A DNA stretch of 25,064 bases from a virus, in IMG/VR virus record IMGVR_UViG_3300042992_000831, positions 1 through 25,064 of that record. One strand, written 5' to 3'. Numbering within the stretch: position 1 is the first letter of the stretch; each line of letters starts with the position of its first letter. The position numbers were made by a program, and so were the translations under genes. The notes below the pieces were generated by a model. That model did no database searches and was not told where the DNA came from. It worked only from the letters and a program-made list of their open reading frames with translations. Of this stretch, positions 6,541 to 25,064 are shown one piece after another.

Positions 6541-6568
6541 AACATAACAAAACAAAGAATAGAATATT

Positions 6569-7497: not shown

Positions 7498-7502
7498 CAA
7501 AC

Positions 7503-9536
7503 ATGGCAATCAATACAATAAATAAAAATTTTAAAAACAAAGGTAAAGATATTAAATACCTTAATAAAGATTTCTCTACATTTAGAGCTAACTTAATTGA
7601 GTTTGCTAAAACGTATTTTCCAAAAACTTATTCTGATTTTAATGAAACATCACCTGGTATGATGTTTATTGAAATGGCATCTTATATTGGTGATGTATTG
7701 GGATACTATATAGATGATACTTTAAAAGAATCATTAATGCCGTTTGCTGAGGATGAAACGAGTATGTTAGCATTAGCACAATTTTTAGGGTATAAGCCAA
7801 AAGTAACATCTCCTGCAATATCTACATTATCTGTATATCAATTAGTACCATCAATAGGAAGTGGATTTAATAATAGGCCTGATTCAAAGTTTTATTTGAG
7901 AATCAAAGAAGGTATGGCGGTACAATCACCTAATGGTATAGAATTTAGAACAACGAATCTTGTTGATTTTGAAGATGCAGCTGATAGAGAAATAACTGTA
8001 TATGAAAGAGATGCAAATACTGGTGAACCTGTATTTTATTTAGCTAAAAAATATGTACAAGTAATTTCGGCAGTTGTAAATGAAAAAGAAGCATCTTTTG
8101 GTAATTATCAATCTTTTCAAACTATTGATTTGGAAGATACTAATATAATCTCTATATATGATGTTAGGGATTCTAATGGAAACAAATACTATGAAGTACC
8201 TTACTTAGCACAGGAAATGGTATTTATTGATTACCCAAACACAGAAGCAAATGACCAAGAATTATATCAATTCAAATCAACTGTACCATATATTTTAAAA
8301 ACAATTAAAACTGCAAAAAGATTTACTACAAGAATAAATCAAAATAGTACAACAACAATTCAGTTTGGAGCAGGTGACCCAACGGCAAGTGATGAACAAT
8401 TGATTCCAAATCTTAAAAATGTTGGATTGGGTTTACCAAATTCTATAAGTAGATTGGAAGAATCATTTGACCCAACTAATTTCTTAAAAACAAAAACATA
8501 CGGAACATCTCCATCAAATACAACAATAACTGTAAAGTATTACGTTGGCGGAGGTGTTGCATCAAATGTATCACAAGGACAATTAACAAAAATATCTGGA
8601 ATTGAATTTGATGATGATATATCGGCATTTAATGATGCTGATAGAATAACATATAATACTATAAAAAACTCTGTAGCTGTTGATAATGAAATTCCAGCTA
8701 CTGGTGGTAGAGATGGTGAAACATTAGAAGAAATTAGACAAAATGCATTAGCAAACTTTGGTGCACAAAATAGAGCAGTAACTGCAAAAGATTATCAAAT
8801 TAGAGTATTATCATTACCTTCAAAATATGGAGGAATAGCAAAAGCATACGCTGTTGCTGATGGTACGTTAGATAATAATTCACCAGCGTCTATATTAGCA
8901 TCTCCAAATCATTTGCAAGAATTTACTGATTTGGTTATGAGTTTTGTTAATAAGCCAGATTCAGAAGAACCAACAGAAGGAAGTATAAAAGAAGATATTA
9001 CTAAATTTTTAATTGGTAAAACTGCAAATGAAAACGAAAAAAATAATCCATTTGCAATTAATTTATATTTGTTAGGGTATGATGTTAATGGTAATATTAC
9101 TAATCTCAATAGAGCAGTTAAAGAAAATCTTAAAACATATTTAAATGAATATAGATTATTAACTGATGGTATTAATATTAATGATGGGTTTGTTATTAAT
9201 ATTGGTGTTGATTTTGAAATAGTTGTTTTTGGAAACTACAATAAGAGTGAAGTATTAACAAACTGTATAGTTCAGTTAAAGGATTATTTTAGTATTGATA
9301 ATTGGTCATTTAATCAAACAATTAATTTAAGTGAAATCGAATTACTAATAGCAAATGTTGAAGGAGTTTCATCAGTTCCTATGGTTAAAATAACAAATAA
9401 GTGTTCTGGTAAATATTCTTCAAATTCATATAATATAGAAGCGGCAACTAAAGATAAGATTGTATATCCATCGTTAGACCCTTCGGTTTTTGAAATTAAG
9501 TTTCCTGATGCAGACATAAAAGGCAGAGTAAAATAA
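7503..9536 (+). CDS. 6: Baseplate wedge protein gp6 (baseplate J-like)
   Basis: The 677-residue length is close to T4 gp6 (about 660). The N-terminus has the characteristic block with LNKDFSTFRANLIEFAKTYF (residues 20-39) and ETSPGMMFIEMASYIGDVLG (48-67). The middle includes TIQFGAGDPTASDEQLIPN and ETLEEIRQNALANFGAQNRAVTAKDYQ (about 408-434), which is the baseplate J core. Two gp6 copies per wedge form the inner ring of the baseplate in T4 and drive the change in diameter on contraction. It lies five bases after gp25 and overlaps the next gene by one base. Confidence 0.9.
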   Translation: MAINTINKNFKNKGKDIKYLNKDFSTFRANLIEFAKTYFPKTYSDFNETSPGMMFIEMASYIGDVLGYYIDDTLKESLMPFAEDETSMLALAQFLGYKPKVTSPAISTLSVYQLVPSIGSGFNNRPDSKFYLRIKEGMAVQSPNGIEFRTTNLVDFEDAADREITVYERDANTGEPVFYLAKKYVQVISAVVNEKEASFGNYQSFQTIDLEDTNIISIYDVRDSNGNKYYEVPYLAQEMVFIDYPNTEANDQELYQFKSTVPYILKTIKTAKRFTTRINQNSTTTIQFGAGDPTASDEQLIPNLKNVGLGLPNSISRLEESFDPTNFLKTKTYGTSPSNTTITVKYYVGGGVASNVSQGQLTKISGIEFDDDISAFNDADRITYNTIKNSVAVDNEIPATGGRDGETLEEIRQNALANFGAQNRAVTAKDYQIRVLSLPSKYGGIAKAYAVADGTLDNNSPASILASPNHLQEFTDLVMSFVNKPDSEEPTEGSIKEDITKFLIGKTANENEKNNPFAINLYLLGYDVNGNITNLNRAVKENLKTYLNEYRLLTDGININDGFVINIGVDFEIVVFGNYNKSEVLTNCIVQLKDYFSIDNWSFNQTINLSEIELLIANVEGVSSVPMVKITNKCSGKYSSNSYNIEAATKDKIVYPSLDPSVFEIKFPDADIKGRVK

Positions 9537-10606
9537 TGGCATACTATTTTTTAACAGCATCAAAAGATGCATCGGTTTATTTACAACAACCAAATCAGAA
9601 TACTGGTTTGGATGAAATATTGGAAATAAGTAAAGTATATTACGGAAACATTAAAGATGTATCACATGCGTTACTTAAATTTGATTTAGGATATGTATCT
9701 GCATCAATTTCTAACAATAGTATTTCAATGAGTTCTGCAGAATTGATACTAAAAGAAACTAAAAGTGAAGAAATTCCATTAGATTATACTATATTTGCAA
9801 ATGCAATTTCTGGAAGTTGGGAAATGGGTACTGGTACTAGATTTGATAATATATCAACTCAAGGTGTAACTTGGAATTATAGAGAGGGGGATTCTTCGTT
9901 GGAGTGGTTACAAAATAACTTCCAATCGGGAACAGAAGCAAGTACTAATAATGGTGTTGGTGGTACTTGGTACACAAACTATGCAGCATCTCAAACATTT
10001 AGTTATCAAACGGCAGATATTAATATGAATGTAATATCAATACTAAGAGCTTTCATAAGTGGGTCTGTGATAAATGATGGTATTATTTTAAAATACTCAA
10101 CAGCAAATGAAAGCGATACTGCAGATTATGGTATATTAAAATTCTTTAGTAAAGAAACTCACACTATATATCAACCAAAAATAAGAATTGGATGGAATGA
10201 TTCAATATTTTCTACTGGTTCATTAACTCCATTAACTGCAAATGATATTAAAGTTGGTGTAACTAATTTGAAAAAGGAATATAAAGTAGGTACTATTGCA
10301 AAGATACAACTATTTGGTAGAGAGTTGTATCCACCAAAAACATTCTCAGATACATTTAATTATTCAACTTCAAAATATTTACCAGCTACAACTTATTATC
10401 AAATAAGAGATTACGCATCGAATGATATTATAATTCCATTTAGTGATTATTCTAAAGTTAGTTGTGATTCTAATGGAAATTATATAAAAGTTAATTTTTC
10501 AAATTGGGAAGCTAATAGAGTTTATAAAATAGAATTTAAAGTAGATAGTGGTAGTAGTATTGAATACTTTGATAATGATACTACATTTAGTTTAGTTAAA
10601 AATTAA
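9536..10606 (+). CDS. Virion protein with DNRLRE-like domain, baseplate operon
   Basis: The 356-residue protein begins with a segment that fits a DNRLRE/carbohydrate-binding-like beta sandwich. It has DASVYLQQPNQNTGLDEIL at 11-29 and SHALLKFDLG at 43-52, then strands and a Trp-rich stretch up to about residue 220 (PKIRIGWND). The remaining part (about 235-356) is another beta-rich, Ig-like region. No signal peptide or catalytic motif is visible. Its place directly after gp6 is where T4 has gp7, but I see no clear gp7 similarity. A peripheral baseplate component that binds glycans or other baseplate proteins is the best guess. Confidence 0.65.
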   Translation: MAYYFLTASKDASVYLQQPNQNTGLDEILEISKVYYGNIKDVSHALLKFDLGYVSASISNNSISMSSAELILKETKSEEIPLDYTIFANAISGSWEMGTGTRFDNISTQGVTWNYREGDSSLEWLQNNFQSGTEASTNNGVGGTWYTNYAASQTFSYQTADINMNVISILRAFISGSVINDGIILKYSTANESDTADYGILKFFSKETHTIYQPKIRIGWNDSIFSTGSLTPLTANDIKVGVTNLKKEYKVGTIAKIQLFGRELYPPKTFSDTFNYSTSKYLPATTYYQIRDYASNDIIIPFSDYSKVSCDSNGNYIKVNFSNWEANRVYKIEFKVDSGSSIEYFDNDTTFSLVKN

Positions 10607-10608
10607 TA

Positions 10609-11703
10609 ATGGCAAAAACTGGATTACAAAATGAGCAATTAATAAGTGAACTTTTAGTTAGTGGTTCAATGGCAATCACTACTAAAAATCCTTTTGGTGT
10701 CCATACTTTTGAACAAACTAATAATGATGAAGGTGTTATTTCTGGAAAATTAATAAAGCCAAAATATAATGAAGTAGAATTAGTTAAGTCTATTGATACT
10801 AGAATTTTTGAACTATTGCCACCAGAACCACCACCATTTGATGATAGAGTTCCAAGACCAATATATAATGAAGCAACTCAATCGGTAATTGATTTAACTG
10901 CACAAGTAGTTGTTTTAAATAAGACAGTTTTGGATTTAAGAGCAAAAGTGCAAGATGTAGAAATAGTTTCTGAAAGTTTAAAAGTACAATTGGATTTAAA
11001 AGATTTAAATTTAGCAGCTGCACAAAACCAAACTGGACAACTAACAACAAAAATATCAAGTACAATAACCGAATTACAAAACTCTATACAAAAAGGAACT
11101 GCTGAAGCGATTCAAAGAGTTTCTTTATTTGCAAGGAATCAATCATTGGAGCAAGAGTTGAGTGCGTTAAGATTAGCGGTATCAGCAAAAGAGCAGGCGT
11201 TAGCAGCTGGAGCAGTTTCAACTGGACAATTGGCAAGTATATTATTTGATAAAGGTGACCCAACCAAAGCAACCACAGCAAAAATGATTGGTATGGATTA
11301 TGGTGCTGGCGCACGTGGAGTATCAGCTGCAACAGCTGGAACATTTGCAGCTCCTGGTAATGATTATTCAAATACATTTAGAACATATTTTGAAGTAATA
11401 GCATCATCTGATTTAACTGGAAAAAAGGAAATAAGTGTTGATATTAAATTCACAGGAGGTGTTAGTCAATCTATTTGGGATTTTGGATTCGCATTGCCTG
11501 TTAAACTAAAAGCTGGGGAAACTAAAAGATTTGAAATGAAAACGCCTTCAGCATATTTTAAGGGGTTGAGAGGTTCTTATGGTGCTAGTACATTCTCTGC
11601 ATCAAAACCATCACAATATGATTTTACATTTAGTATAATAGTATCTGATGGTACTAAAACTGAAAATAAAGATTTCACTGTACATATATACAAATATGAT
11701 TAA
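10609..11703 (+). CDS. Coiled-coil virion protein with C-terminal beta domain
   Basis: This 364-residue protein has a short N-terminal domain and a Pro-rich hinge (LPPEPPPFDDRVPRP, about 68-82). Next is a long heptad-like region (about 89-200) rich in Leu, Val, Gln, Glu and Lys, including SLEQELSALRLAVSAKEQAL. The C-terminal beta domain (about 255-364) contains KKEISVDIKFTGG and DFTFSIIVSDGTK. The layout is that of a trimeric fibre or rod: attachment, stalk, tip. It lies between two other baseplate-operon genes, two bases after the previous stop. No family is recognised. A short fibre or wedge-linked rod is likely. Confidence 0.65.
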   Translation: MAKTGLQNEQLISELLVSGSMAITTKNPFGVHTFEQTNNDEGVISGKLIKPKYNEVELVKSIDTRIFELLPPEPPPFDDRVPRPIYNEATQSVIDLTAQVVVLNKTVLDLRAKVQDVEIVSESLKVQLDLKDLNLAAAQNQTGQLTTKISSTITELQNSIQKGTAEAIQRVSLFARNQSLEQELSALRLAVSAKEQALAAGAVSTGQLASILFDKGDPTKATTAKMIGMDYGAGARGVSAATAGTFAAPGNDYSNTFRTYFEVIASSDLTGKKEISVDIKFTGGVSQSIWDFGFALPVKLKAGETKRFEMKTPSAYFKGLRGSYGASTFSASKPSQYDFTFSIIVSDGTKTENKDFTVHIYKYD

Positions 11704-11713
11704 TAAATAAAAA

Positions 11714-12937
11714 ATGGCCATAAAAACATTCAAAGAAATATTAGATAACAAAGGATATCGAATTGATTCAAATGATAGAAAGATATTTGAAAATGGAGAT
11801 ATTCAGTCATTTTTTGGATTAGGGCAAAATGATTCTATTGAAGTAATTATATATGATATAAACGATAATCAACTTCCACAAAAAGATGGAAATTTGGTTA
11901 GATACATACCATTAACAACAGATAATATTAAAGATTATTTTTTAATAGCAGAAGGTACTATATTTCAAAAGTATCAATTACCAAATGAATATTTTATAGA
12001 TGTTGAAAGACTTTTAAGAGAAGCTGGATATAATAATGGTAATTTTAAAACACAAATATCTCTTATTAATAAAAGAGTTGGTAGTGAATTAAATAATGAT
12101 AAACTTTGGATATCCGAAATATCACCATCTAGAACTGAAGTTAGATTATTTCCTATAAGAGATGTAAATAATATAAATAAAGAATTGGAAGATAGATTTT
12201 CTTTATTTATGATGGGAGGTGAATTTAGAGATGATACTATAAATTCTTCTTTTTCTTTTGTAGAAGCAATTACACCAACTACAATAAGTTCATTTATGAA
12301 AAGAAAGTATTCTGAAAAGTGGTTGAATAAAATGATTGGTGAATTTAAAATAAAAAATTTTGATACATTTATAACAACAATACATAATAAATTTTTAGAA
12401 GCTTCAACGTATGAATTTACAAATAGGATATCTGATTTAAAAAACATAAATTATGGTAAACCAAATAATAAAAAAACAAAAATTGAATTATCAAAAAGTG
12501 AAATTATAGAAATTTGTAAAAAGATTTTAGTTAGTACAATAGAATATTATTTATCAAAACAAGATATTAAATCTGCTACAACATTTGATTCTGGTATAAA
12601 CGAATCTATGGATGAAGTTGGAAAAGTATTGCAATCATTAGAATCAAATACAACAATAGATACTTCATCTCCTGTTATAAATGAGGGAGTATCTAAGCAA
12701 CTAACACAAACAGATATTGAATTAGAATTGGAAAAACAAATTAAAAAAGAATTGCCAGAGGAAGAAAAAGATATTGAAATAGTAACACCTGATGGTGAAC
12801 CAGATTATATACCACCAGCTGGTGGTGGGAGTGGTGGAACTGGGGGTGGTGGGGGTGGCGGTTTCTTAGATGATGGTTATGATGGAAATGACGGTAGAAT
12901 TAGGTCAGATGATGGGCAGGCTAAAGCATTAAAATAA
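11714..12937 (+). CDS. Baseplate/tail structural protein with Gly-rich tail
   Basis: The 407-residue product starts with a beta-rich domain. It contains EYFIDVERLLREAGYNNGNF (about 93-112), LINKRVGSELNNDKLWISEI and SPSRTEVRLFPIRD, a pattern I associate with structural proteins of marine T4-like phages. Residues 150-290 are helical and Lys-rich. Then come an acidic/basic helix (LELEKQIKKELPEEEKDIEI) and a Gly-rich end from about residue 367 (PAGGGSGGTGGGGGGGF). The next gene starts four bases later and has its own Gly run near the N-terminus. Probably a wedge or fibre-attachment protein, exact role unknown. Confidence 0.65.
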   Translation: MAIKTFKEILDNKGYRIDSNDRKIFENGDIQSFFGLGQNDSIEVIIYDINDNQLPQKDGNLVRYIPLTTDNIKDYFLIAEGTIFQKYQLPNEYFIDVERLLREAGYNNGNFKTQISLINKRVGSELNNDKLWISEISPSRTEVRLFPIRDVNNINKELEDRFSLFMMGGEFRDDTINSSFSFVEAITPTTISSFMKRKYSEKWLNKMIGEFKIKNFDTFITTIHNKFLEASTYEFTNRISDLKNINYGKPNNKKTKIELSKSEIIEICKKILVSTIEYYLSKQDIKSATTFDSGINESMDEVGKVLQSLESNTTIDTSSPVINEGVSKQLTQTDIELELEKQIKKELPEEEKDIEIVTPDGEPDYIPPAGGGSGGTGGGGGGGFLDDGYDGNDGRIRSDDGQAKALK

Positions 12938-12941
12938 AAAA

Positions 12942-15900
12942 ATGAGAGCAGTAGACGATATAATAATTGATGACGAAATTGTAACCGGAGGTGGTGGTGG
13001 TAGTATAACGTCTGCTGGTAGTGGAAATGTAATATTAACAAACACACCAAATACTGTATTATCTAATCAATCATATATTATAAATGTAAATTCAAATGTA
13101 AACGATGCGGATATTATTGTAAATGGTGAATCTGTATCTAAAAAAACAAACAATTCGATTACAATAGCAATTAGTGATTTATTATTAAATGGTGATACTG
13201 AAATTATATTAAAAAAAGATGGATATGTTTCGAATGAAAGATATGTAGTATCACTAGTAGCAAATCCAGATTATAATAGAAATCCAAATTATAATACAGC
13301 AGCTCAGGTATTGGGAAATAATAGTGGTATGGATGCTGAAAATCTTTATGCTTCTTTACCAAACTCTCCAATAGCTAGTTTAGAATATTCAAAAGAATCA
13401 TTATATACCATAGATATAAAGCATTATATAAATGATTTTAAACAATCATATAAAACTTTTAGTGATGGTCAATATTCAAATAATATTTTATTTAAATTAG
13501 AAAAACAAATAATACCAGACGAACCACTATTAAAGTTTACTACAATTAATTTAGATGGTCCTGAGGGGTCTGTTGTTGTAATACCAAATATAGAAAATTC
13601 CGATGGTGTATTAACTGCTGGTGAAAAAATAGTATTAAAAAGTGGAAATAATAAAATAGCAATACCAGAAGGAAGTAAAGCAGTTATACAATCTGCTGAT
13701 TTAAAAAATTATAGAGTTAAAACTATAAATGTAGAATCCGATACATATAAGCCAAAAACTGTAGATGCAAAAACAAACGAAGAAAGCGTATCAGTTACGT
13801 TTGATTTAAATAATGCAAATTATAATATTAGTGTTATTTCTGAAATGTTTGTAACAAAAATAGTAACTAAGCCAACAATAGCATTAAATAATTCTGAACC
13901 AAATAGAAAATACAATTTAAATTCAAAAGCAGATTATCCAATAGGATTATCTAAAAGTACTGACACATATAAGATTACTGCTTATATAAATAATCAAACA
14001 TTTGTATTTTCAAATTTAGATACATCACAACCATCCTTATTTAAAAGGAAAGAATCAGATGCATCCAAAACCGCGGTAATTATTATACCTGCTAAAGCAT
14101 TTTCTACAATTGGAAACTATAAATTGATATTAGTACCATCCGATATAGATGGTGATGGTGATAAGCTTGAATTAACAATAAATGTCAATAGTGAACAATA
14201 TGTTGGTGTTCCTGATATTAGAAATATAAAATATCCATCTTTATTAAAAGGACCTGATTTTGTTGGAACTGATGTAAATTTTGCAATAAGTTATGAATCT
14301 GTAAATACGGATTATGTAAAAATATATAAAGTTGGTAGCGATAGATTTATTAGAGCAACTGCAGCGGGATTAGTAAATTTAAATTTTCAAGAATTATTAA
14401 AATTAGATGGTACTCAAGTTTCCGAAACTGATGATTTAATAAATATTACTTTAAAATTAGTACCTTATAATGAGAGTGGATATCAAGTTGTAGTTGGTAA
14501 AGAAGAATTTATTAATATTAGTTTTGATAAGGGTGATTTAACTATTCCTAGAGATGTTGCTATTAGTAGAATTGCTGATGGATTTATTTCTCAATTTGAT
14601 TCTACAATATTTGAAAACGAAACATCGAAGTATTTAACTCATTTATTACATATTGGTAATGGTGATAATAAAGTAATTACAACTTGGGTTGGTAGTGAAG
14701 GCTCTTTAATATTAAAATTATATGAACCATTAGCAACATCGGTACAAACAAATCAACAAGTTTGGATTTCTAAATTACAATCTCAACCAATAGTTGAAAC
14801 GATAACTATTAATGGTATTGATGAAATATATTGTCATCCATTAAAAGGACCTAATTTCACATTAGAGCAAAGTAATGGAATTGCTTATCAAGTTTACGAT
14901 GATTTAATAGCAAGTGGTTCTACTACATCAAATGATTTAGTAACTAGATTTTTAGAAAGTAGTGGTATAGATACCACTAAATTAAATATACAATATGTAA
15001 GTGGGTCTAATTACACATTTTCTAATTTTACAAACTTTAGCTCAGCTGAAGAGAGAGTAAATAACTTTTTCTATAAAGTAGAATTGATAGAAACTTACAA
15101 AGAAAAATATGAAGGTTTAATATCACCAACATTTATTCCACCATACGGCGCATTTGATGGTGGATTATTAACACAAGATGGTTATCAAACAATTACCGAA
15201 GATGGATTGTTTGACATTCAATGGGAAATTGCACAATTTGCTGGTGTATCGCAAGCTGGCGAAGCTAAAAAAGTATTAAATGCTATAAATTCTTTAATAA
15301 AAGGATTTGACGGATTTGAAAGATTTTTATATTCATCTACAAATAATTTAGCATATCCAAAAACAGCTGAAGCTAATCCTATAACTGGATTGCCATACTA
15401 TAAATTAAGAGCAACTACTAGTTCTCAAGCAAAAGACTGGTATTATAATTTAGTAGATTTATCATCAGAATATGATAAATATAATTCAAATTATTTAGTA
15501 AATAATATACCTGAATTTATAAAAGAAGATTCTGACAATACTGATTTTTTGGTATTTTTGGATATGATAGGTCAACACTTTGATATTCTTTGGGTGTATA
15601 TAAACAATTTATCAAAGACTAAAGTATTAGAGCATAAGCAAGTAAATGGATTTTCAAACAATTTGGTTCATTCTTTATTAGAATCATTTGGTTGGAACGC
15701 TAAAAGAGCATTTAATTCAGAATTAATATGGGAATATGCATTTGGTACTAATAAAGATGGTTTTCAAAAATATAGTATGCCATTGGCAGATGCTAATGAT
15801 GAAGTATGGAGAAGAATTTTAAATAATTTACCATATCTATTAAAGCATAAAGGTACTGCTAGAGCTATGAAAGCTATTATGGCTTGTTATGGTGTTCCGC

Positions 15901-18095
15901 AATCTATGTTGACAATAATGGAATTTGGTGGACCTCAAGACCCAACAAAAGGTGGTAGTTCGCAATTTACATTTGATGATAGAACGGCAGCAATATTATT
16001 AAGAGAAGAATCCAGTGTAATAGTACCTTGGCACGCAATACCTTCTACATTAGAATATCCAAATTGTATTGAGTTTAGAATAAGACCTTCTGGTAGTATA
16101 GATAATGTAGCAACATTAATATCTGGAAGTGAATTTACTTTAGATTTAGTTAATACAACAGGTTCTTTTTATAAATTAGAATTAAATTTTGGTGGAAATG
16201 ATTCAAATAGTACATACTTTGAAACAGGTTCAGTATATGTTGCACCTGAATTAAATGGAGAATATGCATATGGGCCGGATTTAAAAACAGGAAGTTTGGA
16301 TTTTCCATTATCAAATGAACACTATTCAAATGTAGTAATCAATAGACATAACAATCCAGATTCATCTTCTTGGTATGAAGTTTGGTTAGGTACATCAGAT
16401 GGCAATAGAATTATAACTTCGGTTAGTATGTCTATGATGTATAATGATTCTCAATGGACAGGGTCTACGCCTAATTTACTTATTGGTGGTAAGGGATATG
16501 CTGGTGAATTTGATGAATTCCGTTTTTGGAAAGTTCCGTTACAAAGAAGTAAATTTGAAAATCATACTTTATTCCCCGATGCAATCAATGGAAATGATTT
16601 TGATTCATCTACAAAAGATTTAATGTTCCGTTTGGACTTTGAATATCCAAAAGATAGAACTGTAACTCAAAATATAGGAATTAAGAATGTTGCTATAAGT
16701 GATACATATGGTGAACCATTTGCATCAGCAAGTAATATGTATTCGGCTTCAACATATCCATATCAATACGCACCATATGATAGAACTGTAACAGCTACTG
16801 TACCATCTTTAGGATTTAACTATTCTAATAAAATAAGATTTGAATCAGCATCATTAGTTGGTGATTTATCTTATAAAACAAGAGCAACTAAAAAAGCATT
16901 TGATAGAGCTCCAATTGATACAAATCGCTTAGGATTATTTTTCTCTCCAATTAAGGAGTTGAATATGGATATCTTAAAAGCATTTGGTGATTTTAATATT
17001 GATAACTATATTGGCGATCCTGGTGATGAGTATAAAGATACATATTCTCAATTAGATACTTTGAGACATTATTATTTTGAAAGACTTGATAATAGAGATA
17101 TCTATGAATATATAAGATTAATTAAATACATTGATAAATCTTTATTTGAAGTACTTTCCGATTTAGCACCTGCTAGAACAAATATAGTTAAAGGTTTATT
17201 AATAGAACCACACTATTTAGAAAGAAGTAAAACTCGTTGGGATAAACCAGAATCATTAAGAAATGATTTTGAAACTTCAATAGATACTAATAAAAATTAT
17301 ATATTAGAAAGTGAATCAATTCCAAAGGATGCGTTATTAGATGCAACTGATGTGGTAACACTTATAAGTGATGTTAGCAGTGAAGAAACTACAATTGATG
17401 CAAACGATGTAATAACATTTGAAGGAAGTAATCCTAATTATGATACTACAATTGATTCAACTGAAATAATTACATTTGAATCAAGCGCTCCATTCTATGA
17501 TACATTCATTCAATGTCCTAATGGAGCAACTTTGACTGGAGAAGCTGATTCATTTACATTTACTGAAATTGGTATGGATAAAGATTCTTTAGCAAATAGA
17601 GGATTTGGATTATATGCCAAACATGGTACTGGTATAGTTAGTAACTATGAACCATTATTTGGAAATTATCATCCAACTTCCGGAAGTAGAAAAAGTATTT
17701 TCTTAGTAAAGGAGCAATATAGTCAAAATGTAAATACGTTAGTAAAAGGATGGCCAACTAATGGAGCTCTTTTAGGAGAAGCTCAGAAATATGAGAAAGT
17801 AGCAGTTACCAAATACAAATATAAAGTTTCTACACTTAATTGGAGTGGAAGTATATCTATTGGTAATGAAGTAGTTTCGGTAGAAGCATTAAACGGATAT
17901 TTTCCAACGCATTACAAATATAAAAATAACTTGGGTGAAGGTATGATTCGTTCATTTTGGAAAGGTTCTACGCAAACAATAGCAACTACACCTGATGGTT
18001 TAGACCCAGTTGAAACATTTACTACTAATCCTAATATTCTTAAAGTGGCTAAGACTGGTAGAGGTAGTGGTGAACCAATACTTGAGGTAGATTAA
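12942..18095 (+). CDS. Giant multidomain baseplate/tail protein (1717 aa) with tail-protein-I-like and LamG-like domains
   Basis: Visible domains, in order: a Gly run at residues 16-20; a PEGA/Ig-like segment (about 30-110, with ADIIVNGESV and LKKDGYVSNERYVVSL); several beta domains to about 530; and a mixed region with YGAFDGGLLTQDGYQTI near 745. A helical block follows at about 952-986 (VWRRILNNLPYLLKHKGTAR, then MACYGVP) resembling P2 tail protein I. A LamG/concanavalin-like sandwich at about 1040-1205 ends GGKGYAGEFDEFRFWKVPL. Three 19-residue repeats lie at 1467-1523, and a C-terminal beta domain finishes the chain. Its size and position at the end of the baseplate operon suit a large wedge or fibre-network protein, functionally like T4 gp7/gp10, with the LamG part possibly binding surface glycans. 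There is no signal peptide. Confidence 0.75.
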   Translation: MRAVDDIIIDDEIVTGGGGGSITSAGSGNVILTNTPNTVLSNQSYIINVNSNVNDADIIVNGESVSKKTNNSITIAISDLLLNGDTEIILKKDGYVSNERYVVSLVANPDYNRNPNYNTAAQVLGNNSGMDAENLYASLPNSPIASLEYSKESLYTIDIKHYINDFKQSYKTFSDGQYSNNILFKLEKQIIPDEPLLKFTTINLDGPEGSVVVIPNIENSDGVLTAGEKIVLKSGNNKIAIPEGSKAVIQSADLKNYRVKTINVESDTYKPKTVDAKTNEESVSVTFDLNNANYNISVISEMFVTKIVTKPTIALNNSEPNRKYNLNSKADYPIGLSKSTDTYKITAYINNQTFVFSNLDTSQPSLFKRKESDASKTAVIIIPAKAFSTIGNYKLILVPSDIDGDGDKLELTINVNSEQYVGVPDIRNIKYPSLLKGPDFVGTDVNFAISYESVNTDYVKIYKVGSDRFIRATAAGLVNLNFQELLKLDGTQVSETDDLINITLKLVPYNESGYQVVVGKEEFINISFDKGDLTIPRDVAISRIADGFISQFDSTIFENETSKYLTHLLHIGNGDNKVITTWVGSEGSLILKLYEPLATSVQTNQQVWISKLQSQPIVETITINGIDEIYCHPLKGPNFTLEQSNGIAYQVYDDLIASGSTTSNDLVTRFLESSGIDTTKLNIQYVSGSNYTFSNFTNFSSAEERVNNFFYKVELIETYKEKYEGLISPTFIPPYGAFDGGLLTQDGYQTITEDGLFDIQWEIAQFAGVSQAGEAKKVLNAINSLIKGFDGFERFLYSSTNNLAYPKTAEANPITGLPYYKLRATTSSQAKDWYYNLVDLSSEYDKYNSNYLVNNIPEFIKEDSDNTDFLVFLDMIGQHFDILWVYINNLSKTKVLEHKQVNGFSNNLVHSLLESFGWNAKRAFNSELIWEYAFGTNKDGFQKYSMPLADANDEVWRRILNNLPYLLKHKGTARAMKAIMACYGVPQSMLTIMEFGGPQDPTKGGSSQFTFDDRTAAILLREESSVIVPWHAIPSTLEYPNCIEFRIRPSGSIDNVATLISGSEFTLDLVNTTGSFYKLELNFGGNDSNSTYFETGSVYVAPELNGEYAYGPDLKTGSLDFPLSNEHYSNVVINRHNNPDSSSWYEVWLGTSDGNRIITSVSMSMMYNDSQWTGSTPNLLIGGKGYAGEFDEFRFWKVPLQRSKFENHTLFPDAINGNDFDSSTKDLMFRLDFEYPKDRTVTQNIGIKNVAISDTYGEPFASASNMYSASTYPYQYAPYDRTVTATVPSLGFNYSNKIRFESASLVGDLSYKTRATKKAFDRAPIDTNRLGLFFSPIKELNMDILKAFGDFNIDNYIGDPGDEYKDTYSQLDTLRHYYFERLDNRDIYEYIRLIKYIDKSLFEVLSDLAPARTNIVKGLLIEPHYLERSKTRWDKPESLRNDFETSIDTNKNYILESESIPKDALLDATDVVTLISDVSSEETTIDANDVITFEGSNPNYDTTIDSTEIITFESSAPFYDTFIQCPNGATLTGEADSFTFTEIGMDKDSLANRGFGLYAKHGTGIVSNYEPLFGNYHPTSGSRKSIFLVKEQYSQNVNTLVKGWPTNGALLGEAQKYEKVAVTKYKYKVSTLNWSGSISIGNEVVSVEALNGYFPTHYKYKNNLGEGMIRSFWKGSTQTIATTPDGLDPVETFTTNPNILKVAKTGRGSGEPILEVD
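17340..17510 (+). repeat. Three diverged 57-bp units encoding 19-residue repeats
   Basis: Units at 17340-17396, 17397-17453 and 17454-17510 encode DATDVVTLISDVSSEETTI, DANDVITFEGSNPNYDTTI and DSTEIITFESSAPFYDTFI. They are in frame and have diverged, so this is an old duplication inside the 1717-residue protein. It probably forms a small beta stack or linker. Confidence 0.85.
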
Positions 18096-18116
18096 TTGGA
18101 AAATAAAAATTAGTTA

Positions 18117-18124
18117 TATTTATA
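18117..18124 (+). promoter_or_regulatory. Putative phage late promoter, copy 4 (TATTTATA)
   Basis: TATTTATA lies in the 54-base gap after the giant gene, 25 bases before the ATG at 18150. The downstream bases (GAATA) differ from the ACAT seen in most copies. Its distance to 18150 supports that ATG, not 18184, as the real start. Confidence 0.6.
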
Positions 18125-18149
18125 GAATATAGATAAAAAACAATATCAA

Positions 18150-18774
18150 ATGGCATATTTAGATAACACAGAAATTACAGTAGATGCAATTCTTACCAAA
18201 AAAGGAAGACAAAAATTGGCATCAGGTCAATCTAAACATTACAAAGTTTGCTTTGGGTGATGATGAGATTGATTATACGCTTTACGAACCAGCGCATCCA
18301 AAAGGTTCTGCATACTATGATTCAGCAATCAGAGCTATTCCTGTGACGGAAGCATCTCCTGATGAAACTCAAGTATTAAGATACAAATTAGTTACCTTAC
18401 CAAAAGGAACTACTCAAATCCCAACTGTTAAATTGGGTGTACCTCAAATTAATGCAACTCAATTAGAAGGTGGTGTGGGATTAACTCCAACAACATCTCC
18501 TAATGGAAATCAAAATGCTGGATACACAATGGTATTAGCAGACCAAAGAGCTGGTACATTGACTGTAACTGTAGCTGCTGGTTCTGGTACTACAAATATA
18601 TTTTTGGGTGATGAAATTACAACAACTGCACAGGTAGTTACTGGAAAGGAATTTAGATTTACTCCAAATCCAAACTTAACAATTGATGTATCAACAACAA
18701 TAACTGTATTTGGTAATGAAACTGGTGGCTCTCAAACTATACCTGTCATTATAACATACAAACAATCTGTATAA
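18150..18774 (+). CDS. Conserved T4-like virion protein, reading frame interrupted by +1 shift near codon 28
   Basis: Translation from the ATG at 18150 gives MAYLDNTEITVDAILTKKGR and QKLASGQS, which matches the start of a virion protein family I know from T4-like marine phages (MAFLDN..., then GR..LA.G). After the Ser codon at 18231 this frame runs into KHYKVCFG and stops at 18258-18260. The expected continuation, NITKFALGDDEIDYTLYEP, is in the +1 frame and stays open to 18774. Skipping one base between 18231 and 18236 joins the parts into about 207 residues with the family's spacing (ASG-x-x-x-ITKFALGDDEI). The ATG at 18184 in the second frame would replace the conserved N-terminus with unrelated sequence. 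The gene follows late promoter copy 4. Causes could be programmed frameshifting, an assembly error, or a true mutation. It is probably a tail or baseplate component. Confidence 0.75.
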
Positions 18775-18794
18775 AATAAAATAGAAATAAGAAA

Positions 18795-20030
18795 ATGGCA
18801 CAAATAACAAACCCAAATATAACTTCGCAGATTGCAGCATTGGCTAACACTGGTACAATTGATTCAAATGCGATAGTACAATTATTAAATTCAGCACTTC
18901 CAGCTACTCAGCAAATTGCAACTACTGGAACTACTGGTACAGGTCTTTATAAAAGATTTGGTGAATTTGATAAAGTAAACGCAAAAATAGAAGTAGTAAC
19001 AACTGGATTATGGAGTAATGATTCTGGTTCATTAACACAATTCTTTACATCATCAAATCAAGTAGCATCTACAAGTGGTAAATACTATTGGAATGTTTAT
19101 AATTTAGACCCTAGATTAAGTGAAGTAGAAGATATTCAATTTGCAATTGCATATGGACATGTTGATGGAAGTGGTTCTGTTTCTTTACAAAATAGTGATG
19201 AAGCATTGTTACCATCTAAAGCAACCTACGCTCAGTATAAATCGATGTTATTAGACCCAACTCTTTCTAAATTCCAATTTGATAATAGTTCAGGAATTGC
19301 AACTGATGCAAATGGTATCTATATAATTAACTTCTCTAGAAATAGATATAGAGAAAAAATGGACGCTGGTAACTGGTCATTAACGGTATCTGGTTCTAAC
19401 GGATATTTTACATTAATTGATAATAGTGGTAAGAAATTTGGTGATACTTTAGGATTAAGTGGTAACGTATTTAAAGTAGTTTCTGGTTCATTGGAATTAG
19501 GTACTCAAAGTGAAGCAACAATTAAAAATACAACTGAAACTTCAACTGGACAAGGATACGGAGCATTTTATCCTGATAGAGGTATTATAGTACTTAACGC
19601 AGCAGCAATAGGTGGATTAGTTGGAACTGTTAGAGATGGTGGTGGTGCTAGTTTGGGAAGTGTAACTGGTAACCTATCAATATTGGCTGACCAAAGTAAC
19701 CACAAATTATTATATCACGCAATTAGCGCATCGTATAATCCAGCAGCTGGACAAGGTGATTTCCAAGCTAGAAGAACTGAAAACGTATCAACACAACACT
19801 TCTTTGTAAGAGCAACAAATAGAGAATTTAACTATTCTAATAACCCTACTTACTTAGCAGCAGATGGTACATTTACTGAAACTTCATTTAATACTGACCC
19901 ACAAACTTACATTACAACTGTAGGTTTATTAAACGATTCAAATGAATTAGTTGCAATAGCTAAGACTTCTCAACCAATTGTTAAATCTTTTGATAAAGAA
20001 GTTTTAATTAAAGTTAAATTATCATTCTAA
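18795..20030 (+). CDS. Tail fibre/baseplate-type virion protein (411 aa), paralogue of the 298-aa protein
   Basis: This soluble beta-rich protein has no signal peptide. Residues 1-50 are helical and Thr/Ala-rich. The N-terminal domain (about 55-165) contains GKYYWNVYNLDP and FAIAYGHVDGSGS. From about residue 174 it shares a collinear set of motifs with the gene at 20115: YIINFSRNRYREKMDAG, YFTLIDNSG, GAFYPDRGIIVLN, EFNYSNNP (344-351) and YITTVGLLNDSNELVAIAK, with QPI just after. It is the last gene before a strong terminator. The shared block probably makes the same fold twice in the virion. The part played, such as short fibre, collar or baseplate rim, is not clear. Confidence 0.7.
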   Translation: MAQITNPNITSQIAALANTGTIDSNAIVQLLNSALPATQQIATTGTTGTGLYKRFGEFDKVNAKIEVVTTGLWSNDSGSLTQFFTSSNQVASTSGKYYWNVYNLDPRLSEVEDIQFAIAYGHVDGSGSVSLQNSDEALLPSKATYAQYKSMLLDPTLSKFQFDNSSGIATDANGIYIINFSRNRYREKMDAGNWSLTVSGSNGYFTLIDNSGKKFGDTLGLSGNVFKVVSGSLELGTQSEATIKNTTETSTGQGYGAFYPDRGIIVLNAAAIGGLVGTVRDGGGASLGSVTGNLSILADQSNHKLLYHAISASYNPAAGQGDFQARRTENVSTQHFFVRATNREFNYSNNPTYLAADGTFTETSFNTDPQTYITTVGLLNDSNELVAIAKTSQPIVKSFDKEVLIKVKLSF

Positions 20031-20054
20031 TTTAATTAGAAACATAATAAAGAG

Positions 20055-20077
20055 AACCCCCTTCATTGGGGGTTTTT
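20055..20077 (+). terminator. Rho-independent terminator after the structural operon
   Basis: AACCCCC (20055-20061), a 6-base loop TTCATT, GGGGGTT (20068-20074), then further Ts. The GC-rich stem stands out in an AT-rich region, and it lies 24 bases after the stop of the 411-residue gene. The next late promoter copy starts 12 bases downstream. Confidence 0.92.
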
Positions 20078-20088
20078 CATTTAATCAA

Positions 20089-20096
20089 TATTTATA
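20089..20096 (+). promoter_or_regulatory. Putative phage late promoter, copy 5 (TATTTATA)
   Basis: TATTTATA followed by TACA sits just after the terminator, 18 bases before the ATG at 20115. A promoter restarting transcription right after a terminator is a sensible arrangement and supports the reading of this motif as a promoter. Confidence 0.65.
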
Positions 20097-20114
20097 TACA
20101 AATCGGAAGACTAC

Positions 20115-21011
20115 ATGATTAAAGAAATTCCAAAATCTGATATTATAATTAGACCTATGAAGGTCTATAAAGAATGGACATTGGATGAGAATGATATATA
20201 TCCAATTTTCGGTACAAGGGGTGCCAATACATTAATTGATATTGATAATGATGATACAAGTCATGGTTATAATCAAAAAGTAATTCATGCATCAATAAAA
20301 TCCCAATTTTACACAAACCCATCAACAGCATCTATTTTAACAGAAGTTGGATTACGAAAATCATATGCATCAACCGATGAAAGAATTTTAGAAGATGATA
20401 TAGCTGTATTTTCTATCCCACAAATATATTATGGTGAGGGAATAAAAGTTGGAACTGTCGTATTGGAAGATGAACAATTAAGTAGAATTTATACAGATGA
20501 TGGATATTCAAACCTTATTGATTCTGGTAGTAATATTAAAGGAAACATATTTTATGATAGAGGATTGGTTGTAATATCTAAAGATATAGTTAGTGGTTCT
20601 GTATTATCTCAATTTACTTTAAATTTTCGTTCAACAAAAACAATATTTGAAAATGAAGTATTCATACCGGTATTAGAAAGTGAGTTTAATTATTCACAAA
20701 ATCCATCAGCTGTATATGAAGATGGTGGTAGACTTTACACTCATATAATGCAAAGGCCGGGTTCTACAAAAATTGGAGATTTGGTTACATCATCGTTTTA
20801 TGATGCTGGAATTAAATGGGTAAAATCCGCATTTCTTCAATACGAAGCAAGTAGTTCTTTAGACCAAACTGGTTCATTTTTAGCACCATATATTACTACA
20901 ATTGCATTGTATGATAATGAATTAAATATGGTAGCTGTGGCAAAATTACCACAACCAATTAAATCTTTACCTGATTATCCGGTAAACTTTATTATTCGTT
21001 TTGACACATAA
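20115..21011 (+). CDS. Virion protein (298 aa), paralogue of the 411-aa protein
   Basis: The product is soluble and beta-rich. From about residue 99 it follows the 411-residue neighbour motif by motif: FSIPQIYYGEGIKVGTVVL, GYSNLIDSGSN, GNIFYDRGLVVIS, EFNYSQNP (190-197), YITTIALYDNELNMVAVAK and then QPI. It carries about 35-40 extra residues between the last two blocks. The first 95 residues differ from the neighbour. It is transcribed separately, between the terminator at 20055-20077 and late promoter copy 6. A tail or neck component made in different amounts from its paralogue is a reasonable inference. Confidence 0.7.
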   Translation: MIKEIPKSDIIIRPMKVYKEWTLDENDIYPIFGTRGANTLIDIDNDDTSHGYNQKVIHASIKSQFYTNPSTASILTEVGLRKSYASTDERILEDDIAVFSIPQIYYGEGIKVGTVVLEDEQLSRIYTDDGYSNLIDSGSNIKGNIFYDRGLVVISKDIVSGSVLSQFTLNFRSTKTIFENEVFIPVLESEFNYSQNPSAVYEDGGRLYTHIMQRPGSTKIGDLVTSSFYDAGIKWVKSAFLQYEASSSLDQTGSFLAPYITTIALYDNELNMVAVAKLPQPIKSLPDYPVNFIIRFDT

Positions 21012-21016
21012 TGTTA

Positions 21017-21024
21017 TATTTATA
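21017..21024 (+). promoter_or_regulatory. Putative phage late promoter, copy 6 (TATTTATA)
   Basis: TATTTATA lies in the 34-base gap after the 298-residue gene, 21 bases before the ATG at 21046. The downstream bases (TAAAG) lack the ACAT seen in most copies, so this copy may be weaker. Confidence 0.55.
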
Positions 21025-21045
21025 TAAAGAAAACAAACAAAAGAT

Positions 21046-21249
21046 ATGTCTAAAATTTTAGAAACATTTGAAAAAAAACCACCTACAACAAGTAAAATTA
21101 ACAGTAAAGGCGGAGATGTTGAGCCAATAGGCGCTGATAATGCATATAAACCATCCAAAGATTTATCTAAAGATGAAGTAAAGCTTAAAAAAGCAAGAGG
21201 TGGGGATTTGAATACTACAAAGAAGTATTCGGATATGGTAAAAAAGTAA
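21046..21249 (+). CDS. Small basic hypothetical protein (67 aa)
   Basis: This 67-residue Lys-rich protein has no membrane segment or cysteine and is probably disordered for most of its length (KPPTTSKINSKGGDVEPIG, then KDLSKDEVKLKKARGGD). It is preceded by late promoter copy 6 and followed three bases later by the GIY-YIG gene. I do not recognise it. Context allows either a small virion protein or an early accessory protein. Confidence 0.6.
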   Translation: MSKILETFEKKPPTTSKINSKGGDVEPIGADNAYKPSKDLSKDEVKLKKARGGDLNTTKKYSDMVKK

Positions 21250-21252
21250 TTA

Positions 21253-21663
21253 ATGAGTTGGAAATTTAATGGAAATATTGTTACAGAAGAAACCACACCA
21301 GAAGGTGCGGTTGGATTTGTCTATAAAATAATTGATAACAGAACTGGTAGATTCTATATAGGAAAAAAATCTCTATCTCAAACCCGTAGATTGAAACCCC
21401 TTAAGGGAAAGACTCGTAAAAGGGTTGTAAAGAAAGCATCTGATTGGGAAAAATACTATTCATCAAACGAATGGATTAAATCGGAAGTAAAAGCTGGAAA
21501 CGCTGAATATTTTGAAAGAGAAATCATTCAGTTTTGCTTTTCAAAGAAATCCTTATCATATTACGAAATTAAATGGCAGTTTCATTACGATGTACTTGCC
21601 AACGAACAAGCAATAAACGAAAACCTTATGGGAAAATTCTTCCGTAGGGATATTATAAACTAA
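21253..21663 (+). CDS. GIY-YIG-type endonuclease
   Basis: The 136-residue protein shows the two GIY-YIG elements as GFVYKI (21-26) and FYIGKK (34-39). Next comes a basic stretch (RRLKPLKGKTRKRVVKK, 45-61), SDWEKYYSSNEWIK (63-76), and FEREI (87-91) with a candidate metal-binding Glu. Similar proteins occur in many T4-like phages as Seg-like or stand-alone nucleases that cut DNA. No separate DNA-binding module is visible beyond the basic segment. The position between virion genes and the replication operon is typical of a mobile homing endonuclease, but a resident nuclease role in DNA processing is equally possible. It is three bases after the preceding gene and four bases before the next. Confidence 0.75.
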   Translation: MSWKFNGNIVTEETTPEGAVGFVYKIIDNRTGRFYIGKKSLSQTRRLKPLKGKTRKRVVKKASDWEKYYSSNEWIKSEVKAGNAEYFEREIIQFCFSKKSLSYYEIKWQFHYDVLANEQAINENLMGKFFRRDIIN

Positions 21664-21667
21664 AGTT

Positions 21668-21868
21668 ATGACAATACCTGAAATCGCACATAAGTACGGA
21701 ATCTCCGAAGCTTATTTAAACGCAAAAGATGATGCACTTCAAATAGCAGCTGCATCTTTAGTAGACCTTAAAGGAATGTTGGAAGCAAACCAACCAAAAG
21801 CTCCAATTGCAGCAAAAATGCAGTTTTTAGCTGATTTCCTTTACGATGTAAAGAATTCCAATCATTAA
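21668..21868 (+). CDS. Small hypothetical helical protein (66 aa)
   Basis: The 66-residue protein begins MTIPEIAHKYGISEAYL, which looks like part of a helix-turn-helix (IAHKYGIS). It continues as Ala/Leu-rich helices with no other motif. It starts four bases after the GIY-YIG gene and ends just before the host-type promoter. It might be a small regulator, but the helix-turn-helix is too short to be sure. Confidence 0.6.
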   Translation: MTIPEIAHKYGISEAYLNAKDDALQIAAASLVDLKGMLEANQPKAPIAAKMQFLADFLYDVKNSNH

Positions 21869-21900
21869 TTTGGATAATTCCCAAAAAAGTTGTATATTTG
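21869..21900 (+). promoter_or_regulatory. Bacteroidota-type promoter of the replication operon
   Basis: TTTG at 21869-21872, a 20-base spacer, and TATATTTG at 21893-21900 fit the known Bacteroidota housekeeping consensus (TTTG, 19-20 bases, TAnnTTTG). It lies 17 bases before the primase ATG at 21918. It differs from the six TATTTATA copies and is probably read by the host sigma factor early in infection. Confidence 0.8.
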
Positions 21901-21917
21901 TATAGAATATACATAAT

Positions 21918-22856
21918 ATGCTATTTGGGAAGAATAAACTAACGGTCATTAACATTTTAGACACCACATTAGGTGTAGGTTCATCCTTAAAGGGAAATGA
22001 GCAGGCTCACCATTGTCCATTTTGTAATCACCATAAGAAAAAACTTCAAGTAAACTTAGATACCCAAAGATGGCACTGCTGGGTATGTAATTCTAAGGGT
22101 AGGTCAATCCAATCCCTTCTTCGCAAACTCAATGTAGATATAAGAGACCTTAATAGATTGAAAGATATCTATGGTGAGGATGATTATACACTAGTTGAGA
22201 AAGATGAGTATGTGGCTAAGTTACAATTACCATCAGAATTCAAACAATTACACTTCAAACCAAATGGATTCCAACCTGAATACAATCAAGCTATTAACTA
22301 CCTTAAAGAAAGAGGAATTACCCAAGCTGATATCGTTAAATATAACATCGGATATTGTTCTGATGGATTATACTTTGGCAGAATCATTGTACCTTCGTAT
22401 GATGAGAATGGTGACTTAAATTACTTCGTAGCTCGTTCATATTACAAAGAAGAACGAATGAAGTATAAGAATCCACCAGTTAATAGAGATGTAATTGTGT
22501 TTGATAATCAAATCAATTGGAACGAACCCATTACTTTATGTGAGGGTGTATTCGATTCATTCTCAATTAAAAGAAATTGTATTCCTTTGCTTGGAAAGTT
22601 CTTATTGAGCAAATTAAAGAATAAGATTATAGATAAAGGTGTTAAAGAAGTAACTATTATGTTAGATTCAGATGCTATTGCAGATTCAACTAAACATACT
22701 GATTACTTTTTAAAGAACGGAATTAAAGTTCGTAACATTATACCAACTGATAAGGATGCTGGTGAAATGGGATTTAAAAAAGTAAACGAACTCCTAAAGG
22801 GAGCAAAACAAACTGGATGGGATGACTTAGTTCTATCTAAATTAAACAATATATGA
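21918..22856 (+). CDS. 61: DNA primase, gp61-like (zinc ribbon plus Toprim)
   Basis: At 312 residues it is close to T4 gp61 (about 340). The N-terminal zinc ribbon has C33, C36, C54 and C57 (HCPFCNHH and HCWVCNSKG). The Toprim domain shows E209 in CEGVFDS and the DxD pair D250/D252 in MLDSDAIAD. Between them lies the usual primase linker with YLKERGITQADIVKYNIGYC. It makes RNA primers for lagging-strand synthesis and would work with a phage DnaB-type helicase (gp41-like) not in this window. No helicase domain is fused. It is the first gene after the host-type promoter, and its stop overlaps the next ATG by four bases (ATGA). Confidence 0.88.
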   Translation: MLFGKNKLTVINILDTTLGVGSSLKGNEQAHHCPFCNHHKKKLQVNLDTQRWHCWVCNSKGRSIQSLLRKLNVDIRDLNRLKDIYGEDDYTLVEKDEYVAKLQLPSEFKQLHFKPNGFQPEYNQAINYLKERGITQADIVKYNIGYCSDGLYFGRIIVPSYDENGDLNYFVARSYYKEERMKYKNPPVNRDVIVFDNQINWNEPITLCEGVFDSFSIKRNCIPLLGKFLLSKLKNKIIDKGVKEVTIMLDSDAIADSTKHTDYFLKNGIKVRNIIPTDKDAGEMGFKKVNELLKGAKQTGWDDLVLSKLNNI

Positions 22857-23128
22857 AAAACAATCCAAATATAAAAGATAATAGATATAAGGATGGTGTA
22901 GATGCTGGTTTAATGAGCAAATTAAAAATTGCATTACCATTGAAATCAATTGAAAATGAAAAAAATGTCAAGCCACCTATGAGTATGGGTGAAAAATTAA
23001 GATTAAAAGGTTTGACAAAGTTAAATAAAAAAGAAGCAAACGAAATACGAAGATTAATAAATAATAAAATGGAATTGGTTACATCTATTCTAAACGATAA
23101 GGGATATGATGTAGTTAAACGAAAATAA
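22853..23128 (+). CDS. Small basic hypothetical protein (91 aa)
   Basis: The 91-residue Lys/Asn-rich soluble protein has no cysteine and no known motif. It consists of a polar N-terminus, a Pro/Met-rich middle (KPPMSMGEKLRLKG) and a C-terminal helix (KKEANEIRRLINNKMELVTS). It overlaps the primase stop by four bases and precedes the nuclease fusion gene by three bases, so all three are probably translated from one message. A DNA-binding accessory for replication or recombination is conceivable but unsupported. Confidence 0.65.
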   Translation: MKNNPNIKDNRYKDGVDAGLMSKLKIALPLKSIENEKNVKPPMSMGEKLRLKGLTKLNKKEANEIRRLINNKMELVTSILNDKGYDVVKRK

Positions 23129-23131
23129 TAT

Positions 23132-25064
23132 ATGAGGTTAAAGAGAATTTATCACATTGCGGATATACACATCCGTAACATAAAAAGACACAAAGAGTTT
23201 AGAGAAGTATTCTACTCAATGTTCGAAGAAATCAAAAAGAGAGGAACGGAAGATTCCATTATCTACTTAGCTGGTGATATCGCTCATGCTAAATTGGAAA
23301 TGAGTCCTGAATTGGTAAGTGAGATTAGCTGGTTGTTTACTGAATGTAACAAATTATGTCCTACTATTGTAATCGCTGGTAATCACGATTGTAATATGAA
23401 CAATTCGGACAGAATGGATGTACTTACTCCAATTGTAGATGCATTAAAACTACCAAACTTAACTTACTTAAGAGATACGCAGGTTTATGGTATTGGTGGA
23501 GTTGATTTTGCAGTATTCAGTATATTTGACAACAAAGACAATTGGCCTAAAGCTGATACTCTATTTGGTAATAAGAAGATTGCACTATTTCACGGACCTG
23601 TTGATAACTCTACAACCGATGTAGGATATGTAGTTAGTAGTAGACACTTCACAACTGAAATATTTGATGGATACCATTTAGCCTTATTAGGAGATATTCA
23701 TAAAAGACAAGAGATGATATCACCAAGCGGATGTAAGGTGGTATATGCTGGTTCTTTGGTACAACAAAACTTCGGTGAGACATTAGATAAGCACGGATTC
23801 TTAGTTTGGGATTTAGATACAATGACCTATGAGGAAGTTGATATCCAAAACGATTATGGATACTATACTTTAGATGTTGATGGTGGCGTTGTGCCGGATG
23901 TAACTGATATGCCGTTGTATCCTCGTTTAAGAGTGAGGATAACTAATACGGATACCGCAGATACAAAGAGAATGATGGCGGACATTACGGCAAAGTATGG
24001 TGTGGAGGACTTTACAATCATTAGAACGGATACATTTAATAAGAAGAAAACCAACGATAGAGAAGCAAGGTTGGAAGTAGACAGCATAGCTGATATAAAC
24101 CATCAAAACTCTTTAATCGGTGAGTATATTGAACGTATGATGCCATTTGTGACAAAGGAGGACTTAGCTGGAATAGAGAAAATAAATCGTGACATTAATA
24201 GTAGAATACAACCATCAGAACTACAAAGAAACATAAGCTGGAAACCAATTAAGTTTGATTTCAGTAATATGTTCTCATACGGAGAGAGGAATGTAATCAA
24301 CTTCGATAAGATAAACGGACTGATGGGATTATTCGCACCAAATGCACAAGGTAAATCATCCCTATTTGATGCAATCTCATTTTGTTTATTCGATAAGTGT
24401 AGTAGGGCTTACAAAGCATCTGCTATTATGAACAATCGTAAAGCCGATTTCCATTGCCAATTAGAATTCTCCGTAGATGGAGTTGTCTATGGTATTCGTA
24501 GAGAGGGAAGAACAATCAATAAGGGAAAGAACGTTAAAGTGGATGTGGACTTTTGGAGAGAGGGAGATAGTGGTAGAGAATCACTTAACGGAACGGAACG
24601 TAGGGATACCAACCAAGTTATTGAAACCTATGTAGGAAGATATGAGGATTTCATTATGACGGCCCTTTCACTACAAGCTAACAACGCCCTATTCATTGAT
24701 AAATCACAATCGGAAAGGAAAGATTTGATGGCTCAGTTTATGGGCTTGGATATATTTGATAAGCTGTATGATACTGCTACTAACGATATCAAAGATGTAA
24801 ATGCACTTATCAGAAATTTCAGAAAGACCGACTTCACTTCGGAATTAGCCCAAAAAGAAAACGACTTGAATTCAAAGAGAGAGGAGTATGATAATTTAGA
24901 TGCTGAGAAGTTAGAATTGGAAATTAGAAAGGGTGAGTTGGATGAACAAATAATAAATCTATCCCAACAAATCATTCCAATACAAGGTAATTTAAACATT
25001 GATACTCTAAATTCAAAACTTAAAACAATTGAGGGTGATTTAACAACTTGGGGTGGTACTAAAT
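23132..25064 (+). CDS. Mre11-Rad50 (gp47-gp46) fusion, 3' truncated by window
   Basis: A single frame runs from the ATG at 23132 to the last base without a stop (644 codons visible). Residues 1 to about 330 are an Mre11/SbcD/gp47 phosphoesterase, with D11xH13 (ADIH), D49 (AGD), N84-H85-D86 (GNHD), H154 (FHG) and D188xH190 (GDIH). After a short link (SWKPIKFDFSNMFSYGERN) the chain continues into Rad50/SbcC/gp46. The Walker A motif is at G407-K408-S409 (PNAQGKSS), followed by a Q-loop-like region (SLQANNALF) and the start of the coiled coil (from about 540). In T4 these are two genes, 47 and 46. The complex resects DNA ends for recombination-dependent replication and repair. The Zn hook, Walker B and signature motif should lie beyond the window. 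It lies three bases after the 91-residue gene. Confidence 0.9.
   Translation, partial: MRLKRIYHIADIHIRNIKRHKEFREVFYSMFEEIKKRGTEDSIIYLAGDIAHAKLEMSPELVSEISWLFTECNKLCPTIVIAGNHDCNMNNSDRMDVLTPIVDALKLPNLTYLRDTQVYGIGGVDFAVFSIFDNKDNWPKADTLFGNKKIALFHGPVDNSTTDVGYVVSSRHFTTEIFDGYHLALLGDIHKRQEMISPSGCKVVYAGSLVQQNFGETLDKHGFLVWDLDTMTYEEVDIQNDYGYYTLDVDGGVVPDVTDMPLYPRLRVRITNTDTADTKRMMADITAKYGVEDFTIIRTDTFNKKKTNDREARLEVDSIADINHQNSLIGEYIERMMPFVTKEDLAGIEKINRDINSRIQPSELQRNISWKPIKFDFSNMFSYGERNVINFDKINGLMGLFAPNAQGKSSLFDAISFCLFDKCSRAYKASAIMNNRKADFHCQLEFSVDGVVYGIRREGRTINKGKNVKVDVDFWREGDSGRESLNGTERRDTNQVIETYVGRYEDFIMTALSLQANNALFIDKSQSERKDLMAQFMGLDIFDKLYDTATNDIKDVNALIRNFRKTDFTSELAQKENDLNSKREEYDNLDAEKLELEIRKGELDEQIINLSQQIIPIQGNLNIDTLNSKLKTIEGDLTTWGGTK

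Follow-up and report, generated by a model that had tools for sequence, protein, structure and literature searches.

An apparently private two-base loss splits a conserved baseplate-region gene in one phage metagenome contig

The gene that we analyze here has protein matches in six phage records: Flavobacterium phage vB_FspM_immuto_2-6A, three other immuto phages, Microcystis phage Mel-JY01, and the uncultured phage LR756508.1. In the two named phages, immuto and Mel-JY01, the homologues are annotated as single genes, and both products are hypothetical proteins. The immuto_2-6A homologue, immuto26A_164 (QQO91843.1), is an intact single ORF of 219 aa, with 39% identity over the 3′ part of our gene and 48% in a multiple alignment. 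The Mel-JY01 homologue, WWT39512.1, is an intact single ORF of 211 aa, with 39% identity over the 3′ part and 42% in the alignment, and at the junction that concerns us GQSL is replaced by GRNQF. Phage structural genes can also be decoded by +1 frameshifting, for example in Listeria phage PSA, and a review describes the shifts in Listeria phage structural genes as taking place on a proline codon beside a stop or a pseudoknot (PMC5009743).

The window is the whole stretch of 25,064 nucleotides in the IMG/VR record IMGVR_UViG_3300042992_000831, and in it the gene is split between two reading frames. Is the split a way of decoding the gene, a mutation in the phage, or a flaw in the contig? Our preferred reading is a private two-base loss, most likely due to an error in the consensus or the assembly of the contig, to which we give odds of about 0.7 as a matter of judgement.

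The split frame and its intact relatives

The frame break reported in the initial annotation is truly present in the window (Table 1). From the ATG at 18150, the first frame gives MAYLDNTEITVDAILTKKGRQKLASGQS up to a stop at 18258-18260, reading MAYLDNTEITVDAILTKKGRQKLASGQSKHYKVCFG; the continuation in the +1 frame is (L)NITKFALGDDEIDY..., read as LNITKFALGDDEIDYTLYEPAHPKG... from 18232, up to a stop at 18772-18774. The proposal that the break results from one extra base in TCTAAAC was mistaken, and the window is instead two bases short relative to its relatives. Between GQ and I[TS]KF, the junction consists of three codons (Ser/Ala-Leu-Asn/Ser) in 80 out of 80 close relatives, and the close family reads QS-L-NITKF, which takes nine bases from GQ to ITK, against the seven bases in the window. 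Since the window is two bases short at the junction, skipping one base yields a product that falls one residue short of the close family, and the exact family length that had been claimed for it is not reached.

Table 1. Features of the split gene and of the region upstream (window coordinates)
Feature	Coordinates	Strand	Remark
AT-rich element GTTATATTTATAGAATATA, candidate promoter part	18113..18131	+	
5′ gene fragment, 36-codon ORF	18150..18260	+	family match over codons 1-28; last 8 codons out of frame
Seven bases vs. nine in relatives (codons Ser-Leu-Asn)	18231..18237	+	two-base gap at 18233/18234 by BLAST
3′ gene fragment, +1 frame, LNITKFALGDDEIDY... up to stop	18232..18774	+	

As close relatives we took the best 80 of the 588 stretches that were confirmed in IMG/VR, and in all 80 the frame continues without a break across M[AG]YLDN...LASGQ[SA]L[NS]I[TS]KF, including the stretch ...KKGRQKLASGQ[SA]L[NS]I[TS]KF... 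around the site. Comparison with the relatives also bears out the conserved N-terminus. Two further scans were queried with the immuto and Mel-JY01 homologues, and we kept the best 80 of 596 and the best 80 of 544. In the three scans together, the site is open in 240 of 240 relative loci (232 distinct sequences), with identities to the respective query as low as 43%. The frame runs from the N-terminal motif to the stop in 214 of the 240, and in one more it is open to the contig end; the remaining 25 fall outside the motif solely through YLSN or YLSS for YLDN, and their translations are open. Under a stricter motif 239 pass, and the one exception (L370) differs solely by a Y for F downstream.

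The tblastn ranking may sink broken copies below these best-80 lists. A scan of viral_contigs with a degenerate DNA pattern across the site, at varied spacing, is free of that bias but limited to genes with similar DNA; the same pattern finds the window. At the intact spacing of 9, the scan found at least 120 stretches, many of them contigs already among the best 80 of 588, and 120 out of 120 are open for 25 codons. Spacings 0-8 returned no stretches in viral_contigs, a collection that possibly does not hold the window's own record, and spacings 10-25 returned three stretches, all in other protein contexts.

Nearly the same phage occurs in two contigs, each under its own IMG metagenome number, and the gene is intact in both. 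One, IMGVR_UViG_3300033992_000630 (17,703 bases), can be aligned over its entire length with 6541-24242 of the window; apart from the two bases at 18233/18234, it shows just two differences, both within 17 bases of its own end. The other, IMGVR_UViG_3300034093_001163 (47,011 bases), was compared over 2334-25064 of the window (22.7 kb), and its differences are limited to the same two bases and 16 substitutions, which all fall in 21971-22214. An exact signature allowing either form of the junction matched these two contigs, both in the long form, and no others; the short form was found in no contig, and genome_contigs had no match of either kind. The window and the two contigs probably represent one nearly clonal population. 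The 244-bp patch with the 16 substitutions sits inside a DnaG-like gene (21918-22856), and there the window agrees with 3300033992_000630 against 3300034093_001163, apparently by a recombination tract or a chimeric assembly. As for the gene itself, the break is a singleton among intact homologues, as in a private indel, and these comparisons indicate that it is private to the window and is a loss of two bases.

The two halves of the gene had been said to be under selection, and this holds when judged against relatives by dN/dS (five of six compared). We used the NG86 method, ungapped, on the window and six relatives (L002, L003, L004, L005, L006, and L009). For codons 1-28, dN is 0 with dS of 0.16-0.43 against L003, L004, L005, and L009, and against L006 dN is 0.015 with dS of 0.32. 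For the downstream part, dN/dS is 0.11-0.30 against L003, L004, L005, L006, and L009, and the L006 and L009 values are somewhat inflated because both have small compensating gaps. L002 has zero substitutions and thus gives no ratio. The window copy is otherwise identical to intact copies, so that the purifying selection we see is that of the intact gene and is uninformative on the broken copy.

Decoding, mutation, or assembly error

Programmed +1 ribosomal frameshifting would join the two frames, and it has in its favor the conserved parts on both sides of the site, in adjacent frames, besides the precedents in phage structural genes. But the split arrangement occurs in none of the 240 relative loci, and the two near-identical contigs are intact, which together strongly disfavor it. 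The initial annotation had named intact related phages as the observation that would argue against programmed shifting, and they do. The site itself may also speak against it. The first-frame stop lies 8 codons past the site and not at it, the downstream RNA fold is no better than that of shuffled sequences (z = 0.63; 145 of 200 shuffles fold as well or better), and the TCT_AAA_C heptamer is not conserved, as relatives carry two more bases there. To our knowledge, TCT_AAA_C is not among the known shift or slippery sites. In comparison with the Listeria phage shift sites, this one has neither the proline codon nor the stop, and the AGG at 18224-18226 that precedes it, which by eye is Shine-Dalgarno-like, is common to the intact L002. 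Programmed frameshifting is thus very unlikely as the cause, judging from the sequence comparisons. Internal initiation at the ATG at 18184, for a functional product of 196 aa that has a new N-terminus, we regard as hardly credible. The ORF 18184-18774 is indeed open, but this out-of-frame ATG occurs in 80 out of 80 intact relatives, within conserved VDA codons, so that its ORF is uninformative, and a start there would drop conserved N-terminal residues. Phase variation by slipped-strand mispairing was considered and rejected: the site has no repeat tract, only TTT in the nearest relative, and related length variants are absent from the pattern scans at spacings 0-8 and 10-25.

Of the options in the initial annotation, a programmed shift is therefore strongly argued against, and a recent mutation and an assembly error both stand. 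Because the relatives examined are all intact, including the two near-identical phages, what we see is most likely a slip in the assembly or else a mutation of very recent date, rather than a decoding trick. In a genome-wide study, singleton frame breaks are classed as likely indel mutations or sequencing errors (PMC3711429). For an error, we have that the break is the sole difference over 17.7 kb from 3300033992_000630, outside that contig's own end, and that it wrecks a gene under constraint. Within the other covered genes, a BLAST comparison with six contigs found no frame-breaking gap (genes in 174-2388 lie outside the comparison); odd gap totals in it are gaps at a gene's first bases, and the match for 7069-7497 in L090, the one row that was unclear, covers the full length with no gap. 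Against an error, contigs of this kind seldom show private frame breaks. In a survey of about 98,400 aligned residues, a few secondary matches among them, the upstream gene is broken in 1 of 77 loci (L032, no simple indel) and the downstream gene in 0 of 79; four other rows in this survey are secondary to an unbroken match of full length. Among the 240 copies of our gene, there is one in-frame stop elsewhere (L359). Also against an error, the nearest relative has a mere run of three Ts at the site, so that this is not a typical homopolymer error.

The same short run allows a two-base loss as a possible replication slip, and a real frameshift mutation segregating in the phage population, in a defective genome or sustained by mixed infection, would fit the rarity of breaks by error. 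Such a mutation must be recent, given the near-identity between the window and the 17.7-kb contig. On the other hand, the gene is under purifying selection and open in all 240 loci examined, and a lethal minority allele should not surface in a population consensus. A real mutation is on balance an unlikely explanation, if one to be taken seriously. Its fuller version, a loss-of-function allele in a conserved tail-module gene that segregates in an almost clonal population, is common enough to reach the consensus, and is kept by complementation, we consider quite improbable. Returning to a consensus or assembly error, we infer that the loss originated during assembly rather than in the phage. 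Two bases would have been dropped from one contig, with the phage genome unaffected, and the phage would make an ordinary full-length protein without frameshifting (208 aa in the nearest relative).

The case carries a caution, as a conserved gene can look recoded when it is split in a single metagenome contig. Here, it is two nearly identical contigs that expose the split as private. The split would have biological weight only if the defective allele were proved to be at high frequency.

Two other irregularities came up in these comparisons. In L359:1501-2121, the same gene has an in-frame stop at codon 105 with the rest of the frame open, which would be either a recoded stop or a further private break of a metagenome contig. 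In L032:900-1000, the large upstream gene shows a frame change with about 40 residues missing, apparently by a deletion, an inserted element, or an assembly error.

The gene and its surroundings

Upstream of the gene there are two elements that may be phage promoters, as candidates from sequence recurrence. The element TATAGAATATA begins 29 nt before the ATG at 18150 and recurs exactly before 21918 (21897-21916). It is found within 2 substitutions upstream of only 25 of the 80 relatives, and its 20-base version has 2 matches in the window, a number reached by 5 of 100 shuffles. The element GTTATATTTAT, at 18113, is present in 20 of 20 upstream regions printed (20 of the 80), and recurs exactly at 21013 (21013-21023); allowing up to 1 mismatch, it has 7 matches, a number reached by 1 of 100 shuffles. 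These recurrences give a faint hint of the putative late promoter copy that the gene had been credited with. A sigma-70 scan of 17000-19000 finds 9 sites where 10.8 are expected, and thus is uninformative.

Elsewhere in the window, we observe an open frame at 23132-25064 that runs off the window's end. Its residues 4-342 match SbcD-like PHROGs and its residues 309-634 SbcC-like ones, so that it is apparently an SbcD-SbcC fusion in a phage. The small ORF at 21253-21663 matches phrog_447, named 'NAD synthetase', with E 1e-31, and homing endonuclease families less strongly, with E 5e-10; the names conflict. Just upstream of the baseplate genes, 5486-6505 is Peptidase M23-like in Pfam (E 7e-06, with 26.6 bits, below the curated cut-off of 28.7), and has a PHROGs metallo-endopeptidase match too.

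What is the split gene? PHROGs has no match for either fragment, Pfam has none for an intact relative, and we did not find a match in plasmid records. The 47 alignment members compared to PHROGs gave a match for two: phrog_677 (baseplate wedge tail fiber connector) at E 0.0005 for the one, and phrog_19311 at E 0.002 for the other; the first member returned an empty table. A sequence search of solved structures gave only one match, at chance level (E 0.76). An AlphaFold2 model of the intact L002 protein has a mean pLDDT of 65. Its conserved N-terminal third is poorly modelled, with nearly all residues 1-77 below 50, and its C-terminal part is strand-rich. The PDB matches of this C-terminal part are Ig-like and similar folds, such as the C-terminal Ig-like domain of the lambda tail tube (2l04, TM by target 0.59), so that it is predicted to be Ig-like. 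The best viral match, UPI000018F681 (E 3.3e-11), carries no name.

The gene lies downstream of baseplate wedge genes (7069-7497 and 7503-9536, by PHROGs matches), within the baseplate/tail region of the phage, which is a myovirus with relatives among Flavobacterium and Microcystis phages. Judged from its place, it is likely a virion gene, with a putative role in baseplate or fibre attachment. In immuto_2-6A, the homologue is also downstream of baseplate wedge genes and near a very large gene. When sizes and order are compared, however, immuto_2-6A has a 1.2-kb gene between the large gene and the homologue, whereas in the window a 1.2-kb gene precedes the large one. Mel-JY01 is closer in this respect: by the same comparison of size and order, it has a 1.2-kb gene, a 4.0-kb gene, and then directly the homologue, as in the window.
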